Shown: positions 686 to 9,940 of the stretch, one piece after another
Layout of the letters: each line of letters starts with the position of its first letter
Numbering within the stretch: position 1 is the stretch's first letter
DNA from: Christensenellaceae bacterium
GTDB taxonomy: Bacteria; Bacillota; Clostridia; Christensenellales; DTU072
DNA length: 64,000 nucleotides
Assembly (NCBI GenBank): GCA_031259085.1
Contig: JAIRMA010000061.1
Location: forward strand, 46,740 to 110,739
Direction of reading: 5' to 3'
Position numbers and translations under genes: made by a program
Notes under the pieces: generated by a model
What the model was told of the DNA's origin: nothing
The model's database searches: none
The model's input: only the letters and a program-made list of their open reading frames with translations

Positions 686-714
686 TTGACAAAACCTGTA
701 TAAAATTATAAAAT
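686..714 (+). promoter_or_regulatory. Sigma-A-like promoter upstream of the riboswitch
   Basis: TTGACA (686-691), 17-bp spacer, TAAAAT (709-714). Confidence 0.7.
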
Positions 715-780: not shown

Positions 781-794
781 CATAATTTCTTATA

Positions 795-876
795 TGTCAA
801 AAGCAAACCAGGTGAAAGCCTGCGACGCAAAACTAAAGGATCTACGTCATAAAGATACGATAGCCAGTTGCCAATC
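795..876 (+). promoter_or_regulatory. c-di-GMP-I (GEMM-I) riboswitch aptamer
   Basis: GCAAACC - CAGGT(GAAA)GCCTG P2 with GNRA tetraloop - CGACGCAAAACT - P3 - GATAGCCAGTTGCC match the GEMM-I core layout. Confidence 0.9.
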
Positions 877-903
877 GCGTTTGTTGTAACACTGGCTTTT
901 TTC
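863..903 (+). terminator. Riboswitch expression-platform terminator
   Basis: AGCCAGT (863-869) pairs with ACTGGCT (891-897), then TTTTTT; 5' arm overlaps the aptamer 3' strand. Confidence 0.8.
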
Positions 904-965
904 ATGTAACCTGGAAAAAGTAATTAGAGTAAATTAGTGTTATCTCTATTATTGATGGAGGCCAC

Positions 966-1193
966 ATGGGACCTAAAAACTCAATCAAATTATTGCTCTC
1001 ATCTGTTGTCCATAATTCAATATCAAAAATGTTTTGCCTCGTAAGATTTAAATCCTACTTAAAGTTAACTAAATTTAGGGATTTCCTTTTTTGTTTACAT
1101 GCACAAAATACTGAGTTTTTGGACAATCTGCATATTAATCTAAACATTTCTTCAGATCGTAATAATTTCAGGAGCTTAGCCTTATATTCATGA
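966..1193 (+). CDS. Small 75-aa protein of unknown function, first ORF after the riboswitch
   Basis: GGAGG Shine-Dalgarno 5 nt upstream of the ATG; ATGA overlap with the next ORF. Confidence 0.5.
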   Translation: MGPKNSIKLLLSSVVHNSISKMFCLVRFKSYLKLTKFRDFLFCLHAQNTEFLDNLHINLNISSDRNNFRSLALYS

Positions 1194-4100
1194 TAAAGCG
1201 GTTTTTTACACTACATATATATTCAATCGTTTTATTGATTATTATATTAACAGCTTTTGCTTTCATAGGCGCTTCTGTATATGCTGCAATCAATAGCACT
1301 ATAGACTTCAATGACATCTATCTTGCTGGTACTGACGTTTTTTATTTTGATTCAAATGAGTCATCCTATAGCAAAGATTATTCCGTCACTACTGCATCAA
1401 CATCTGTGTCTGTCACAATTAAGCGTAATGACAAAACTAATGATCATGTGTACACAAAACTTGATTTGTTGGTGTTTTCTGACGGAATAGAGGCCACATA
1501 TACTGCAACAGGTGTGACCTCTAAGCACACTAATGTTTCCTTAAGCTCAAAAACCTACAAAAATTGCTCTATCATTGAAAATATTACATTTAAAACCACT
1601 GCATATTCAATTGCTATTTCAACACCTCCTACTAATCAAACTATTAATGTGGTTGTAATCCCACGCGCTGAATATTATTACGAGACACCTAATGCGAATG
1701 GTACTTATCAGGGGCATACTGCAGTCACACCAAACCGGTATGTTGTAGATTTATTCGATTTAGAAATGTTGAATACAGAAGAACGCTATAATTTTTATTT
1801 AGATCCGAATGTGCCAATGCATAGACAACAATATTATAAAAATGTTTATTTCTTAAGCGATATAATTGTTAATCGCGAGTTGATTATAAACTATCCTGGC
1901 TTTTTAAATCTACTCTTTGCTAAAATCCAGTTATATAAGCCCTTAACTATTATGCACACATCTGAGGGAATGTATGATATAAAAACATTGGGTGGTAAGA
2001 TATATAATTCCACTGAAAAATTTACTATAAATACTCCAAAAGCTTATTATAGTGAATCTGGATCCACTGACACATCTCATACGTCTTTTATATGCACCAG
2101 TACAACAAACTTCAGTAAAACAACAAATGTGGATTTCACAGACCCTCTTAATTCAGCGTTATTAAATGCGGCACTGTCCGATGCAGTAGTTTTTGCACAA
2201 AATCACATCCCTTTTCAATTGCTAAAAGATTTGATTTTACCTAATGAATATCAGTCATTAGGCATTACTTACACGTATATTCTAAAGGACACCTCTCTTA
2301 CCAACTTAGCTACTATTGGACATTTAGACAGAGATCTATGGAACGCATCATCAACAACACAATACAAACTAGAAATAATCGCTAATTATGGTGGTACCAG
2401 TCTTTCAAAGACAATTGATATCGAATTAGTTGGCACTGGAATTGAGTCAATTACGTCAGCACTTGCAAATGCATATTACAATTTAGGAGTAACAACTGGC
2501 ATTTTATTACCAGAGATTGATATTCAAACTGCAACGGTTAAAAAGGATCAAAATAATAGCACAATTTTTATTTCATCTCTTAAGCAGGATTTGGAAATGA
2601 CTGATTTATTAGAAACATTTATATATGAGTCTAATTTAAGATCGGACATCTCACTTGTTTTGACTCCTGCCTCTCCAATTGATTTCCTATTTAACGATGA
2701 GCTTTATAGACGAGTTGACTTAACTTATTCAACTACCTATCAAAAATATAGGATCTCATTTAGTAAGGATCCGTCGACTCCAGATAATGTTACATTCTAT
2801 AGTCTTGATTCTATCCAGTTCTTTGCCTCTCCTCAAACGCTGTTACTGCTAGCAAGCGAGGCAGAAATGAAGGTAATCACTTATAATCTTGACTTAGATA
2901 ACAATCTAAATAATAATATAGAGGCTACTTCTGCCGTTGCAAAATTTTATGTGTACGGTATTTCTTTTAAAGAACAGCAAATGTATCTAGAACGTTTCAT
3001 AGAGAATAAATATGTCACATCAAAAGATCAAATCGTAAATCTTTTAAGGGTCGATACTGCACTTGATAGAATATTTAATGGACCAACTGAGGAAGTCATC
3101 CCTTATACTTTTAATCTTAAAAGTATAACATATAATTTTTATTGTGTTGATAGTGATGACGCAGATTATTTAGTAGATTTAAATAATACATATGATGCAA
3201 AAGCTACTTATTTTGCTACTATTATAAATAATAATTCTCACACAATAAATCCTTCTGCGCCCCCAGGGGACGATACTTATAATTCATTTTTCATTTTTGA
3301 TACAACTAATAGCACGATGGAGCTAGCCAATGATGTTTATTTAAACATCCCTGATGGGACTTCCATGATAATAAAAATTGATCTTACTTATGAACAAAAT
3401 GTTGTATTGCCACATGGAGTAGGTGACTATTCTACTTATCGCAGATTCATAATCCCCAAAGAAGGACTTGGGGGCAATGATTCTACAAAATATTTATTAG
3501 GCGACACTTTTGCTGAATATTTTAACAATTTAGTTAATGGAATGTTAATTGATTCAACCTTAAGCCTTTTTACTGATGGCGTCGAAACTACACCAGGCAC
3601 TGCGTTTATGTTAAAACCTGATTCCTCAGATGATATAATTGGACTCAGAATGAGTATCGTCAATGATTCTGAGGTTGGAGCATACTGCAAAATTTTACAA
3701 CCCGATTCAGTAAACCATCCATATTGGTGGCAAATTGAGATTGATATAGATAAAATACCTGCATACAATTCCGTAGTCAACGTTTCTGCCGAGTTTTTTA
3801 TAATAGTAAATAATGCAGAAACCCCATTGTCAGAGCAATTATATTCTTTTATAATCCCTGGCATATATAGAGTAGGTGCTTCAGCTGAATTCAAATCTAC
3901 ACAATTATACGAACTAATAATCTCAATCAAAGATAATTCTAACAACTATTTGTATGGGTATTATGAATCACAACAAGGAGACAAGTACCTTTTAGTTGAC
4001 TACGCTCAAAAAGATGTTGATACATTAGAAATCACACAAGCGGCTTTAGATTCGCAACCTAGTGGGGCTGTGCCCGCTAGTGGACTTGATCTTAGTGGCA

Positions 4101-5140
4101 TGGAATACCTTATTAATACGAAAAAATTAATATTTAAAAATGTTAGAAAAATTATAAGCTTCGAGCCGTTTAATCGTATTGACACTTCAATCATAACCGA
4201 ATTGACTCTTGATAATTGCAGTCTCACAGATGCTTTATTGAATCCTGCTTATTTGGCTAATTTGCAAACTCTCACGTACGTTAATTTAAATAATAACCCT
4301 AATATCACGAGGCTGTCATTACCAAGTGGCACGAAGAGTGATCCTGTATACACCCCCTATTTTTATAGGTCAGTGGAAATATTCTCTTTAGATAAAACAG
4401 GGATCCGTGAAATTCTTGACATTACAAAATATCCGTACATAACAGATTTGTATGTAAGAGATACACCTATTCCATTTTACGAGCCTCTCGTCTCTTTAAA
4501 ATATTTAAAGCGTCTATACTTAGATTGGACACAGACTACAAGGAATGACAGCTTTTATTTTAACGAAAATTTACCCTCTACTTCATATGATGCAAGTGTT
4601 AATAATTATTTATACGCAAACGGTGTTGTAAATATTCCTGAGTATGTGACACTAATAATCAAAGGTGTGTCAATTTATTATAAACCATCGGCTGGGGTTA
4701 GTGACGCTCTCATGGCAATTGGAGAAAATGAATTCATTCCTTATGACTTATATGAGGCCGCTATAATACTAAATAGCATCTATGTTTTTCGTCAACATTA
4801 TAATTATTTAGCTTTTCCTGCTAAAGTATTTTCAAAAAACTATCAGATTGGAGGCACATCAAACGGTACTAGAACAGAAATCTATGTTAGGTATGCTATC
4901 AATAATACTCAGACCTCTGGAGCATCGTATTTGTTTACTGCAAGAGAATTTAATCATCATTCTTCGCCTACCACGACTTCTGACCCACATGCTACTACTG
5001 ATACTACAACGACGGACGACGCAATAAAGTTTAGTACAACGCCAGCAAGCAATCGCCTTATTTATATAGTAGCAAAATGCACAGTAAATTCAACTACTTC
5101 TTATAAGGCTTATCCTTTAATTTGGATGGGGTTGAAATGA
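1190..5140 (+). CDS. Large (1316 aa) surface-anchored/exported protein with leucine-rich-repeat-like C-terminal region
   Basis: Long ORF; N-terminal hydrophobic segment IVLLIIILTAFAFIGASVYA; LRR-like stretch LTLDNCSLTDALLNPAYLANLQTLTYVNLNNNPNITRLSLP. Confidence 0.85.
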   Translation: MIKRFFTLHIYSIVLLIIILTAFAFIGASVYAAINSTIDFNDIYLAGTDVFYFDSNESSYSKDYSVTTASTSVSVTIKRNDKTNDHVYTKLDLLVFSDGIEATYTATGVTSKHTNVSLSSKTYKNCSIIENITFKTTAYSIAISTPPTNQTINVVVIPRAEYYYETPNANGTYQGHTAVTPNRYVVDLFDLEMLNTEERYNFYLDPNVPMHRQQYYKNVYFLSDIIVNRELIINYPGFLNLLFAKIQLYKPLTIMHTSEGMYDIKTLGGKIYNSTEKFTINTPKAYYSESGSTDTSHTSFICTSTTNFSKTTNVDFTDPLNSALLNAALSDAVVFAQNHIPFQLLKDLILPNEYQSLGITYTYILKDTSLTNLATIGHLDRDLWNASSTTQYKLEIIANYGGTSLSKTIDIELVGTGIESITSALANAYYNLGVTTGILLPEIDIQTATVKKDQNNSTIFISSLKQDLEMTDLLETFIYESNLRSDISLVLTPASPIDFLFNDELYRRVDLTYSTTYQKYRISFSKDPSTPDNVTFYSLDSIQFFASPQTLLLLASEAEMKVITYNLDLDNNLNNNIEATSAVAKFYVYGISFKEQQMYLERFIENKYVTSKDQIVNLLRVDTALDRIFNGPTEEVIPYTFNLKSITYNFYCVDSDDADYLVDLNNTYDAKATYFATIINNNSHTINPSAPPGDDTYNSFFIFDTTNSTMELANDVYLNIPDGTSMIIKIDLTYEQNVVLPHGVGDYSTYRRFIIPKEGLGGNDSTKYLLGDTFAEYFNNLVNGMLIDSTLSLFTDGVETTPGTAFMLKPDSSDDIIGLRMSIVNDSEVGAYCKILQPDSVNHPYWWQIEIDIDKIPAYNSVVNVSAEFFIIVNNAETPLSEQLYSFIIPGIYRVGASAEFKSTQLYELIISIKDNSNNYLYGYYESQQGDKYLLVDYAQKDVDTLEITQAALDSQPSGAVPASGLDLSGMEYLINTKKLIFKNVRKIISFEPFNRIDTSIITELTLDNCSLTDALLNPAYLANLQTLTYVNLNNNPNITRLSLPSGTKSDPVYTPYFYRSVEIFSLDKTGIREILDITKYPYITDLYVRDTPIPFYEPLVSLKYLKRLYLDWTQTTRNDSFYFNENLPSTSYDASVNNYLYANGVVNIPEYVTLIIKGVSIYYKPSAGVSDALMAIGENEFIPYDLYEAAIILNSIYVFRQHYNYLAFPAKVFSKNYQIGGTSNGTRTEIYVRYAINNTQTSGASYLFTAREFNHHSSPTTTSDPHATTDTTTTDDAIKFSTTPASNRLIYIVAKCTVNSTTSYKAYPLIWMGLK

Positions 5141-6276
5141 GCATGAAAGAACTTAAAAAGAAAACACTAATAACTTCTATCGTGACAATCATTCTCGTAA
5201 TATTTCTATCAATCGGCGTTCTATGGGCATGGTTTTATGATGAGGAAGTAGACGGCACAATACCCCGTCAAACAGGTGATCTTTATGCCAAATTCGAATT
5301 ATACTCTGGCCGTGACCATAATTTAGATGCGCGTTTAGATCCCATAAATTTGTCATATTTAGGTGTTTCTAATATCACCAGAACAACACGTCTATCGCAA
5401 TTTTACAATAAAACAAACGATTATTTAACTGCTGGGGCAGATGATTCTCTTAACTCCTGGCTAAGTCTAAAGGAAGGTCGCGCAGTATCCTATAAAATGC
5501 TAGCTACAGTTCTAAAAGATTCCCCGTCTGGTGTTTTTGAACTGAATTTTTCTAATTTAGCTCACTACTTTTATCTCAATCCTCAAAACTATTTAGATAT
5601 TGTCTCTTATCCTAACACATTATCTCCACTAGCTAATTATCTTAAGACCCTAGGGACTACCAATAAGGGTAATTTTTCAACACTTATTACCACGACTGCT
5701 TTTCAAGACTATCTAGGTAATAATGTTGCTAGATTGATGTATAAGCTGATAATTGATGGCGTCAGAATATATTCAGATGAGAATGGGACTCAATTTACCG
5801 CGTTTAATACAGGATTTGAGAAAATTCTGACAACTAGCGTTGCAACTGAATCCACAAATTTAGGGGTGCCACAATTAACAATCCCTAAAACAGAATATTA
5901 TTTACATGAATTGTCACATAGTGAACCTTTTGTTCAGGATATAGTGCTTAGTAGTGAACAACTAATAGAGGTTGATTTTCATTTAGTTGCGATTGGAGAA
6001 ACAGAAGCTATAGACAAATATACTAATTATTTGGCTACCGAAAAAACTTCTCTAGCTTCTCGTGCAAGCTCCTACATAAATAATATAGGCAACTTCTATG
6101 CCGTATTGAATGCCACACAAGTGAATGCACTATCTACTATTGCAAATAACTTTATAGATGACATGTCTAATGTAGAAATTTCATATCTCTTAGGTGAAAT
6201 TGTTGACGAACGCAAACTACTTTTTAATATTGATCGAATTACTGGATCTATTAGATCTATAGTGGATGGTGTTTAA
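5137..6276 (+). CDS. Exported/membrane-anchored protein with N-terminal helix and WAWF motif (SipW/TasA-type-like)
   Basis: ORF 5122..6276; ATG at 5137 overlaps upstream stop (ATGA); IVTIILVIFLSIGVLWAWFYDEEVDG. Confidence 0.8.
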   Translation: MSMKELKKKTLITSIVTIILVIFLSIGVLWAWFYDEEVDGTIPRQTGDLYAKFELYSGRDHNLDARLDPINLSYLGVSNITRTTRLSQFYNKTNDYLTAGADDSLNSWLSLKEGRAVSYKMLATVLKDSPSGVFELNFSNLAHYFYLNPQNYLDIVSYPNTLSPLANYLKTLGTTNKGNFSTLITTTAFQDYLGNNVARLMYKLIIDGVRIYSDENGTQFTAFNTGFEKILTTSVATESTNLGVPQLTIPKTEYYLHELSHSEPFVQDIVLSSEQLIEVDFHLVAIGETEAIDKYTNYLATEKTSLASRASSYINNIGNFYAVLNATQVNALSTIANNFIDDMSNVEISYLLGEIVDERKLLFNIDRITGSIRSIVDGV

Positions 6277-7160
6277 TGGAAGCTCTAAAAAAAGAAAAAC
6301 GAAAACACCTAATAAAAATGTTAGTGCCTATTTGTGCAGCTGTTTCTTTGGTTGTGATTGCTGCCATTGCGATGTCTGGGCTATATGGTTGGTTTGCTTT
6401 CAGTGATAATGCTGTTGTCAGTGAGTCCACTTTCTTTGTTAGAACCGGAAATGAGCCTAACATTCAGATTGAAGCCTTAGATGTAAATGGTAATTTACTT
6501 GAAAACCCGCCAACTGTAATTAAGCCTGGTGACTATTTGCGCTTTCGAATAAGCTTATATAATCACACAGGGACCACTGTTAAACGTTCTCTTTTAATTA
6601 ATAATTTGTTTGTGTTATATCCTACACAAAAAACAATTGATTCAGTCCCATTTACTTTTGACAATGAGCATGTTAATACAGATGATTACTATTTCGGTAC
6701 TGGGATGGTTAGATTTGATATATTTAATACAACAAATTTCCCGAATCAGTCTAATAGATATGATTTTTTCACATCATTTATGGCCCCTGCTACAAATGCT
6801 CTACGATACTCTTTGAGAACTACATTTAACCCCTATTTTGATCCAAATGAAAATTATTTAAAGATGACAGCTCTAAGTAATGCAACAGCTAGTGAAATAA
6901 TTGCACCAGAAATGAATAACGTGCTTGCTACTCCTGTGCCTTTATCGATATCTAGTATAGAGAATATTACTGCATTCTCTATACCTTCAACCGCCACTAC
7001 TTATGATACAGCGGTTGTTACCTATCTCTTATTATATTTTAACCCAGACTTCCCTAGTACTTCTTTATTTTCAAATCAACCTGTCGTTTTAAAAAATAGC
7101 AATCCGTTCTATTGGCAGGATTTAGAGATTTTTTTGAATTTTGAGGATGTTTCAGTTTAA
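6276..7160 (+). CDS. Exported protein with SipW-like/TasA-like N-terminus (GLYGWFAFSDNAVV)
   Basis: TAATG overlap with upstream gene; hydrophobic segment then YGWFAFSDNAVVSESTFFVRTGN. Confidence 0.8.
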   Translation: MEALKKEKRKHLIKMLVPICAAVSLVVIAAIAMSGLYGWFAFSDNAVVSESTFFVRTGNEPNIQIEALDVNGNLLENPPTVIKPGDYLRFRISLYNHTGTTVKRSLLINNLFVLYPTQKTIDSVPFTFDNEHVNTDDYYFGTGMVRFDIFNTTNFPNQSNRYDFFTSFMAPATNALRYSLRTTFNPYFDPNENYLKMTALSNATASEIIAPEMNNVLATPVPLSISSIENITAFSIPSTATTYDTAVVTYLLLYFNPDFPSTSLFSNQPVVLKNSNPFYWQDLEIFLNFEDVSV

Positions 7161-7333: not shown

Positions 7334-9940
7334 ATGAATTTCATTTTCCAAAAAATATCGAATGTGGCAACAGATGTTCGTGCGCATTGGAGAAGACCAG
7401 CTCCTAAGAATCATATACCATACCGTGAGATGGCAAATTATTCTATCGCAGGTCTTGGATATAACTTTATAGGCTTACTCACAACATATTTAGGCCTCGC
7501 CGCTACTAATACTTTTATAGGGTCAGTCATTGGAATTAGACCAGTTGATATTTATTATATGAATATCGCTATGTCTATTGTTAGCTCCGTGTTTTCGTTA
7601 ATAAGAGGCACTATAGTTGACAATACAAAAACTAGATGGGGCAAATTTAGACCATACATCCTTTTCTTTGGACTACCAGTAATGGTCATAGATATATTGT
7701 TTGTCTTTTTGCCTTTTGACAGGTATAGCTATACAGAGAAAATATTCTATATCTTGCTAGTGAGCGTAGGCCACGGTTTTTTAGCTCCATTCTTTACAGA
7801 CACCTATGGCGATTTGAAATCCGTAATGTCACCAAACACGGAGGAGCGCACCATTTTAATTACTGTGCAAACAATGATTATGTCATTTGCACCAACTCTT
7901 ACCAACTTTTTCATACCACTCCTAATGTCAAAAATACCTGGCAATTACACAAATATTTATGCATACAGATGGATAATAGCGCCAGTCGCTGGCGTAGGGT
8001 TTTTCTTCACGCTCTTTGCGGCGTTTGGGACAAAGGAGCGCACAGTCCTACCTAAACAATATAAGCCCAAGGTGCGTCTTATTAAGGGTATTGTTCAAAT
8101 ATATAAAAATAAGTATTTTTGGGTTCGTAATTTGCACGGTTGGCTTGGATTCTTAGAAGGTGCCTTTGGCGCTTTGTTTGGATGGATTTTTATCTATTAT
8201 TTGCAAGACATGGTAATGATGGGCGTGGTCCAAACCATAAATGGTGTAGCGGGGGGGATTTGTATACTCATAACCCCATGGGTACTTAGGAAAATTGGAA
8301 ACAGACGAATGCTACTAATGGTCAATGTCTTGAACGTTTTATTTGTATCATTGATGTCTCTCACATTTAAACTGCCAGCCCTCTATTTCACATTCAATTG
8401 GCTGAATACATTCTTACAAATGTTCTATATGGTAGGTGATCCTGTTATGCATTGTGAGGTTAAGGATTACCAACAATACTTGTCTGGTGAGCGGTTGGAT
8501 TTTGTGTTTGGATCAGCTTTAATTATAGGGACACCTATAGGCATTTTTTCTGGGATGGTAATACCACGCGTTTATGAGTCAATGGGGCTCACTACAAATT
8601 ATGATGTGTTATATGACCCAGCCGTAAGGAATGCAATGTTTAGAGTTTTGTGTTACCTATCAATAATTGGCTCTATTTTGAATTTGCTACCATTATTCTT
8701 TTATGATTTAACAGCTATAAAACATCGTAATATCATTAAAGTGTTAAAACTTAGAGCACTTTTCGATGATTATATCTCAGAGGATGGAGTAATTCCAGCA
8801 GACGTGATCAAGCATAATGTTGAGCAGATAAATGAAGCCAATTTGTTGACTTCACTAGAAAAGCCAAATTTAAAAGAGATAAGGAGTAATATTCTGCGGT
8901 CTGTTAAGGCCAAGGGCTCAAATTCAACTGAAAAGAAGCAGCGCTGGAAAGCAATAATACACGCATATAGTGATTTAACTAAGGCTAAGGATCTATATGA
9001 TGAAATCGATACAGCAAATATTGTCTTAAACGAATTAAACAAATTTTCGACTAAAGAATTCATTGTTAAGGCAGAATTAGCAACTGAGACTGTTAGTTTA
9101 ACTTTCGATGATGTATTAAAACTAAATGATGACCTCTTAATTGAGGCTAAAAATATTACACGTCCAAACCGAAAGGAGTTAATTAATCAAGCTAAAAAAA
9201 TTCATTTTAACGAAAGTAATCTAAAAGAAATACTAAAAGAGGTTGAGAAAAAATACAAAGAAGATGTGATGCTCAGACGATTTAAGATTAATAGGGCTCG
9301 GGGTCTCTTGAAAATGCGCGATCTTTCTATAAAATATTATCCAGACGGATTGGTCGTACCAGACCCACAAGTCTACAAGAGCGCACAAGAAATGCCTGCT
9401 ACTAATAACAAGGAGCGAAAACTTAAATTTAATGCGCTAAAGGCTGCTGAAAAAACAATAAATCTATATCACAGAGTAGCAGAGGTTTATATAGATGCAC
9501 AGCGTTTACTCAATTTGAAACGAGCGTATCTGTCATATTCTGAAATTGCTACGCGCTATGATGTGGCTTGTCTTGAAGTCGCAGAAAATGAAAGGATTCG
9601 TGTTGAGAAAGAATTGGAAGCTAAGCTTGAGAAAAAAGCAGAGCTCGACCGAATTAGAGCTGAAAAATTCGCACAGCTGTCACCTAAGCGGCAGGAATCA
9701 GTCCTAGCTAAACGCGCTAAACGCGCGGAGAAAGAGCGGCTAAAAGCTCTTGAAAAACAGAAACGTTTAGATGAGCAGGATAAAAAGGATGATCCTCACA
9801 AAGAAGAAACTGACTTACCTCTTGATAATTCAATTGATGATAATGCAAATATAATTGAACCAGTGACCTTGCCTGTTGATCTAGAGAGCACAGAGTCTAA
9901 CATAAAAGAAATTGAAGAGTCAAATGAGGAGGAAGATTAA
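7334..9940 (+). CDS. GPH-type (MFS_2) sugar:cation symporter with ~390-aa charged C-terminal extension
   Basis: RGTIVDNTKTRWGKFRPYILF motif typical of GPH transporters; K/E-rich helical C-terminus; GGAGG RBS. Confidence 0.85.
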   Translation: MNFIFQKISNVATDVRAHWRRPAPKNHIPYREMANYSIAGLGYNFIGLLTTYLGLAATNTFIGSVIGIRPVDIYYMNIAMSIVSSVFSLIRGTIVDNTKTRWGKFRPYILFFGLPVMVIDILFVFLPFDRYSYTEKIFYILLVSVGHGFLAPFFTDTYGDLKSVMSPNTEERTILITVQTMIMSFAPTLTNFFIPLLMSKIPGNYTNIYAYRWIIAPVAGVGFFFTLFAAFGTKERTVLPKQYKPKVRLIKGIVQIYKNKYFWVRNLHGWLGFLEGAFGALFGWIFIYYLQDMVMMGVVQTINGVAGGICILITPWVLRKIGNRRMLLMVNVLNVLFVSLMSLTFKLPALYFTFNWLNTFLQMFYMVGDPVMHCEVKDYQQYLSGERLDFVFGSALIIGTPIGIFSGMVIPRVYESMGLTTNYDVLYDPAVRNAMFRVLCYLSIIGSILNLLPLFFYDLTAIKHRNIIKVLKLRALFDDYISEDGVIPADVIKHNVEQINEANLLTSLEKPNLKEIRSNILRSVKAKGSNSTEKKQRWKAIIHAYSDLTKAKDLYDEIDTANIVLNELNKFSTKEFIVKAELATETVSLTFDDVLKLNDDLLIEAKNITRPNRKELINQAKKIHFNESNLKEILKEVEKKYKEDVMLRRFKINRARGLLKMRDLSIKYYPDGLVVPDPQVYKSAQEMPATNNKERKLKFNALKAAEKTINLYHRVAEVYIDAQRLLNLKRAYLSYSEIATRYDVACLEVAENERIRVEKELEAKLEKKAELDRIRAEKFAQLSPKRQESVLAKRAKRAEKERLKALEKQKRLDEQDKKDDPHKEETDLPLDNSIDDNANIIEPVTLPVDLESTESNIKEIEESNEEED

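Follow-up and report, generated by a model that had tools for sequence, protein, structure and literature searches.

A c-di-GMP-I riboswitch upstream of SipW-type exported proteins and its predicted three-switch regulon in a Christensenellaceae bacterium

A candidate class-I c-di-GMP (GEMM-I) riboswitch precedes a row of genes for exported proteins in an uncultured gut-type bacterium. Which ligand does it recognize, in which direction would it switch the downstream genes, and what else in the genome (2.35 Mb, 92% complete) is placed behind the same type of RNA? We examined the window, i.e. the whole 64,000-nucleotide stretch of DNA that was analysed, together with the rest of the genome and its relatives. 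The RNA is of a known kind, while its regulon appears to be new.

The aptamer and the window operon

An Rfam scan of the whole window gave a match to RF01051 at 792–875 on the forward strand. It covered the full model (1–87) and scored 65.6 bits, compared with a gathering score of 35 (E=1.3e-10 over the whole window and 6.3e-13 over the local 301 bases). This significant covariance-model hit confirmed the first-pass annotation, which had placed a GEMM-I riboswitch at 793–905 and had proposed such a search as a check. The core motifs quoted there are all present: AAAAGCAAACC (799–809), GGTGAAAGCC (811–820), CGACGCAAAACT (823–834) and GATAGCCAGTTGCC (859–872). The model alignment delimits a P2 hairpin with a GNRA tetraloop (CAGG U GAAA G CCUG, 809–822, forward strand) and P3 (831–869, same strand), whose base is formed by 831–834 with 866–869 and in which 838–839 pair with 864–865; P1 comprises only about 2 bp. 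In an alignment of 23 family sequences, 98.2% of the cells in the aptamer helices pair and two-sided changes occur at 10 pairs, and shifting the partners by a single base abolished the pairing signal. With its GNRA-capped P2, P3, invariant core and covarying helices, the window aptamer is a real and ordinary member of a known RNA class. A partial repeat of the aptamer start (TGTCAAAAGCA; 749–760 versus 796–805) is found in the leader, about 46 bases 5′ of the aptamer.

Further upstream, a probable sigma-70-type promoter (TTGACA-17-TAAAAT, 686–714, forward strand) carries 11 of 12 consensus bases, and transcription is expected to start near 720. Since one such site was found where 4.5 would be expected from the pattern alone, what speaks for the promoter is its high score and its position. 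Five tRNA genes (Pro, Met, Asp, Phe and Thr; 36–484) lie directly 5′ of the riboswitch locus. Between the aptamer and the first large gene, a Shine-Dalgarno-like GGAGG is followed by a 75-aa ORF (966–1193; whole element 957–1193, forward strand). This ORF was rejected as a regulatory leader peptide because it is not conserved in the orthologous locus of a related genome, G019.

The operon itself encodes, on the forward strand, a 1316-aa exported protein with an LRR-like C-terminal region (1190–5140), a 378-aa exported protein with a SipW-type signal region (...IGVLWAWFYDEE; 5140–6276, with an alternative ORF start at 5122) and a 294-aa exported protein, also with a SipW-type signal region (...MSGLYGWFAFSDN; 6276–7160). 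N-termini ending in WAWF, YGWF or YAYF are, on inspection and from general knowledge, what we take to be typical of SipW-dependent signal peptides. None of the three proteins matched a domain family in Pfam or NCBIfam, and searches of the same collections found no TasA/camelysin domain in the exported proteins. An AF2 model of a SipW-type relative (pLDDT 75) had FimA as its best fold match in the PDB, which was not significant (E=0.02); a PDB sequence search with another SipW-type relative returned no match, and the window 294-aa protein, predicted without an alignment, reached a pLDDT of only 38. Past the operon, at 7334–9940, lies a gene for an 868-aa MFS_2 (GPH-type) transporter; some 400 charged residues at its C-terminus extend beyond the family coverage.

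Sister switches in the genome and in the family

Three c-di-GMP-I riboswitches were found in the genome, that of the window having the highest score, and two of them precede large exported proteins of the SipW signal-peptide type. While the window riboswitch leads into the 1316-, 378- and 294-aa proteins, the second is followed by a leucine-rich-repeat protein of 3,660 aa and the third by an operon for a SipW-like signal peptidase, an AAA protein, its 562-aa partner and a second signal peptidase. The first of these peptidases matches NF046067 with E=2.4e-18, a model that gives 66–67 bits on SipW-like peptidases, below its cut-off of 190; the second (L007:4465–5250) matches TIGR02228 with 83.9 bits (cut-off 51.85). 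The regulon therefore contains a SipW/ER-type signal peptidase. The surface-protein operon of the first-pass annotation stands, whereas the genes it had called merely "different" form part of a SipW-type export regulon.

Across the family, 22 riboswitch loci could be read, and in each of them the next genes encode SipW-type exported proteins or SipW/AAA proteins; in the wider order, genes of SipW type follow only a minority of riboswitches, about a quarter of those examined. In genome G021, genes for the giant, a 1315-aa and a 383-aa protein share one contig and strand with the SipW-AAA operon, an arrangement that links the window operon to the SipW-AAA machinery.

The same relatives suggest how the locus arose. 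In the aptamer tree, the switches preceding these cargo proteins in G021, G020, G019 and the window genome (G000) form one clade with a support of 99/100. G020 and G021 have a single switch before the giant, 1.3-kaa and WAWF proteins, which stand in a row; in G019 and the window genome the row is split and each part has its own riboswitch copy, these two being the only genomes with two copies of this cargo lineage, which carries A at position 20 of the ligand pocket (A20, see below). Moreover, the window leader keeps a GGAGG and an ATG resembling the start of the giant gene, and the 75-aa ORF is probably a remnant of that start. The simplest reading would be that the operon split and that each piece retained its riboswitch.

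Terminator, predicted polarity and ligand

An intrinsic terminator (862–902, forward strand) overlaps the aptamer: AGCCAGT at 862–868, inside the aptamer, pairs perfectly with ACTGGCT at 891–897, and a T run follows at 897–902. The first-pass annotation was right in locating the 5′ arm within the aptamer 3′ strand, although the position it gave, 863–869, has to be replaced by 862–868. A generic terminator scan of the window locus found none because of its loop limit of 8, whereas a dedicated search found the hairpin. P3 uses the terminator 5′ arm as its 3′ strand, so aptamer and terminator cannot coexist, as had been anticipated. In the ligand-free RNA, the terminator fold lies 3.2 kcal/mol below the aptamer-constrained fold. 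The shared strand and this preference support the earlier prediction of an ON switch.

The window terminator is modest (−10.4 kcal/mol), among the weaker ones of the set, and only moderately significant by itself, since an equally stable and overlapping hairpin arose in 19 of 500 shuffles of the 25 bases 3′ of the aptamer. Among the 22 evaluable family loci, 20 show the overlap, mostly at 0–3 of 500 shuffles, as do 65 of the 74 evaluable riboswitches in the wider related set, which shares a few loci with the first; the architecture is thus beyond chance. The overlapping 5′ arms vary, some loci using AGCCAGT and others GTTGCC or TGCC, and that different bases lead to the same outcome points to selection for mutual exclusion.

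If no ligand is present, the polymerase would make the aptamer, the segment 891–897 would then capture the P3 3′ strand (862–868), and transcription would halt at the T run once the terminator had formed. Binding of c-di-GMP would lock J1/3 and the base of P3 and keep the terminator from forming, so that the operon (1190–7160) would be transcribed. From sequence and folding we consider it quite probable that the riboswitch acts as a transcriptional ON switch for c-di-GMP.

The opposite polarity, in which ligand binding would promote termination, has its precedent in Clostridioides difficile, where the class-I switches that were tested and found functional turn expression OFF, while the ON switches of adhesin and pilus genes belong to class II (PMC6200980). 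The parallel that the first-pass annotation drew with class-I riboswitches of Clostridioides is in this respect inexact. Cd1 and the other C. difficile class-I switches resemble that of the window in aptamer class and in belonging to Bacillota, but they are OFF switches (PMC6200980) and the window one is predicted to be ON. In Cd1 the terminator can coexist with the aptamer, whereas in the window both claim 862–868, an exclusion like that of pilM (PMC9262584); moreover, no alternative anti-terminator was seen at the window locus, and the overlap recurs in the 65 relatives counted above. We dropped the OFF reading on account of this overlap and regard it as very improbable. Equally improbable in our view is that the window copy is a decayed product of the operon split, with a recognizable aptamer and no important switching. 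The second copy of one A20 lineage in G019 and the window genome, where G020 and G021 have one, the likely gene remnant in the leader and the weakness of the terminator would all fit such decay. But the G019 orthologue keeps the aptamer core, the terminator and the distance to the 1316-aa gene while the rest of its leader has diverged, and the window aptamer outscores both of its sisters in the genome.

A further question is that of the ligand. At the contact equivalent to G20 of Vc2, where the consensus is G (usual, not obligatory for c-di-GMP-I), the window aptamer has A802 (forward strand; numbered by the pair 803–828, equivalent to G21-C46). This deviation had been overlooked in the first-pass annotation and brings up the choice between cGAMP and c-di-GMP. 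A occupies the position in 9 of 23 family aptamers; in the genus of the window, the cargo switches have A and the SipW switch has G. The RNA could accordingly be a switch resembling GEMM-Ib, with 3′,3′-cGAMP (cyclic AMP-GMP) as its natural ligand: G20A is the key change that shifts engineered GEMM-I toward cGAMP, and Geobacter cGAMP aptamers have A14 at the equivalent position (PMC6274999). In the latter, however, the adjoining first P2 pair is C15-G40 (PMC6274999), whereas the window keeps G803-C828 as in c-di-GMP aptamers. The enzymes speak the same way. Hypr GGDEF enzymes are marked by Ser in place of Asp (PMC6456294), while the canonical Asp is present in the two cyclases of the genome and in every one of the 28 GGDEF motifs read across the family; neither a Hypr GGDEF, a DncV-type synthase nor any SMODS-type cyclase/nucleotidyltransferase was found in the 92% complete genome. 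EAL genes also adjoin A20 riboswitches in other genomes. Finally Bc2, with A at the same position, answers c-di-GMP and not c-di-AMP, GTP or cGMP, the passages compared making no mention of cGAMP (PMC4933901). The canonical GGDEF motifs, the lack of a SMODS match and the Bc2 precedent led us to drop cGAMP as the leading idea, and we hold it to be unlikely. c-di-GMP is, judging from these sequence comparisons, very probably the ligand of the window riboswitch. GGDEF proteins were found in 9/9 riboswitch-bearing family genomes versus 4/31 lacking the riboswitch (p=2.6e-6, a value that ignores shared ancestry).

Bc2 of Bacillus thuringiensis, a class-I ON switch, is the closest proven precedent (PMC4933901). 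It shares with the window the class-I aptamer and A at the G20-equivalent (A11), and it is a terminator-based ON switch with a surface adhesion protein downstream, as proposed here. It differs in that this protein, Cap, is a collagen adhesion protein for which no SipW-AAA operon is described, and in that one switch serves one gene, in contrast to a three-switch regulon that includes export machinery. The pilM switch of Geobacter metallireducens (GEMM-Ib) is likewise ON, with mutually exclusive terminator and aptamer and A at the G20-equivalent; it differs in its ligand, cGAMP, in the C15-G40 pair beside the pocket where the window has a G-C pair, and in serving pilus genes (PMC9262584, PMC6274999). 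With A20 and G20 pockets in one regulon, nature offers sister switches that differ at the base tuning ligand or threshold, so that its effect on either could be tested between sisters.

Wider distribution and a possible c-di-GMP circuit

The sister riboswitches would govern the 3,660-aa protein and the operon of SipW-like peptidases with the AAA protein; with switches on both cargo and export genes, high c-di-GMP would turn on the two together, and this joint induction would give a surface layer or matrix. We infer co-ordinated expression and a putative role of the regulon in matrix formation or adhesion.

With the AAA protein as query, we retrieved 80 loci from named genomes. The best match (96%) is from a Christensenellaceae MAG, and the remainder include members of Clostridia, of Bacilli and of the wall-less Acholeplasmataceae; Acholeplasma oculi, A. 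granularum, Paracholeplasma vituli and Peloplasma aerotolerans are in the set. Searching with a model of the family aptamers, we detected 75 full-length riboswitches and one cut-off in 44 of the 80 loci, all on the operon strand. Where at least 8 kb of sequence precedes the AAA gene (42 loci), a riboswitch lies upstream of it in 30. Genes for c-di-GMP breakdown are commonly beside the switch, since in 18/39 eligible riboswitch loci the first riboswitch directly follows the end of an EAL or GGDEF-EAL gene.

These loci may represent an undescribed, widespread circuit in which c-di-GMP directly gates a proteinaceous surface layer, from its making to its export, a reading to which we give about even chances. 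Its parts would be EAL/GGDEF genes, c-di-GMP-I ON riboswitches, often in tandem, SipW-type peptidases, the AAA ATPase together with the partner dedicated to it, and exported proteins of giant size; its range would extend from Christensenellaceae-like Clostridia to wall-less Acholeplasmataceae. In the lineage of the window, the operon would have been split in three, each unit keeping a riboswitch, with A20 in the pocket of two.

Dedicated SipW peptidases are also found in sipW-tasA of B. subtilis and sipW-bsaABCRSD of Clostridium perfringens, where SipW-dependent extracellular polymer proteins serve biofilm formation. Other regulators control these operons (in C. perfringens, a two-component system; PMC7395162), and the literature compared mentions no c-di-GMP riboswitch and describes no AAA/partner pair for them. 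Within the open-access literature, with subscription literature outside the search, we found no paper linking SipW to a c-di-GMP riboswitch, nor one joining Acholeplasma with c-di-GMP or GEMM riboswitches. The circuit would tie a second messenger, by RNA alone, to a type of export that other regulators run in the Bacillus and Clostridium cases compared, and for Acholeplasma, whose members lack a wall and can be cultivated, it predicts that c-di-GMP would switch lifestyle.

A second SipW-AAA cluster of the window genome (G000:C94 1–16000, L184) has no riboswitch. It opens with a gene for a 907-aa protein with a weak, probably degenerate EAL domain, and an EAL-like/AAA pairing was also seen in G019, G021, G022, G030 and G039; this cluster may use a protein receptor instead of a riboswitch. 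At a distance from the riboswitch loci, a GGDEF-EAL-EAL gene row (G000:C56 48825–54517, L185:825–6517) is likely the main c-di-GMP turnover operon of the genome, although its homologues adjoin riboswitch loci in other genomes. Two or three tandem class-I aptamers precede the same operon at L042 (G021:C167), L039 (G021:C217), L093, L061, L103, L106 and L109, most of them with an overlapping terminator of their own.
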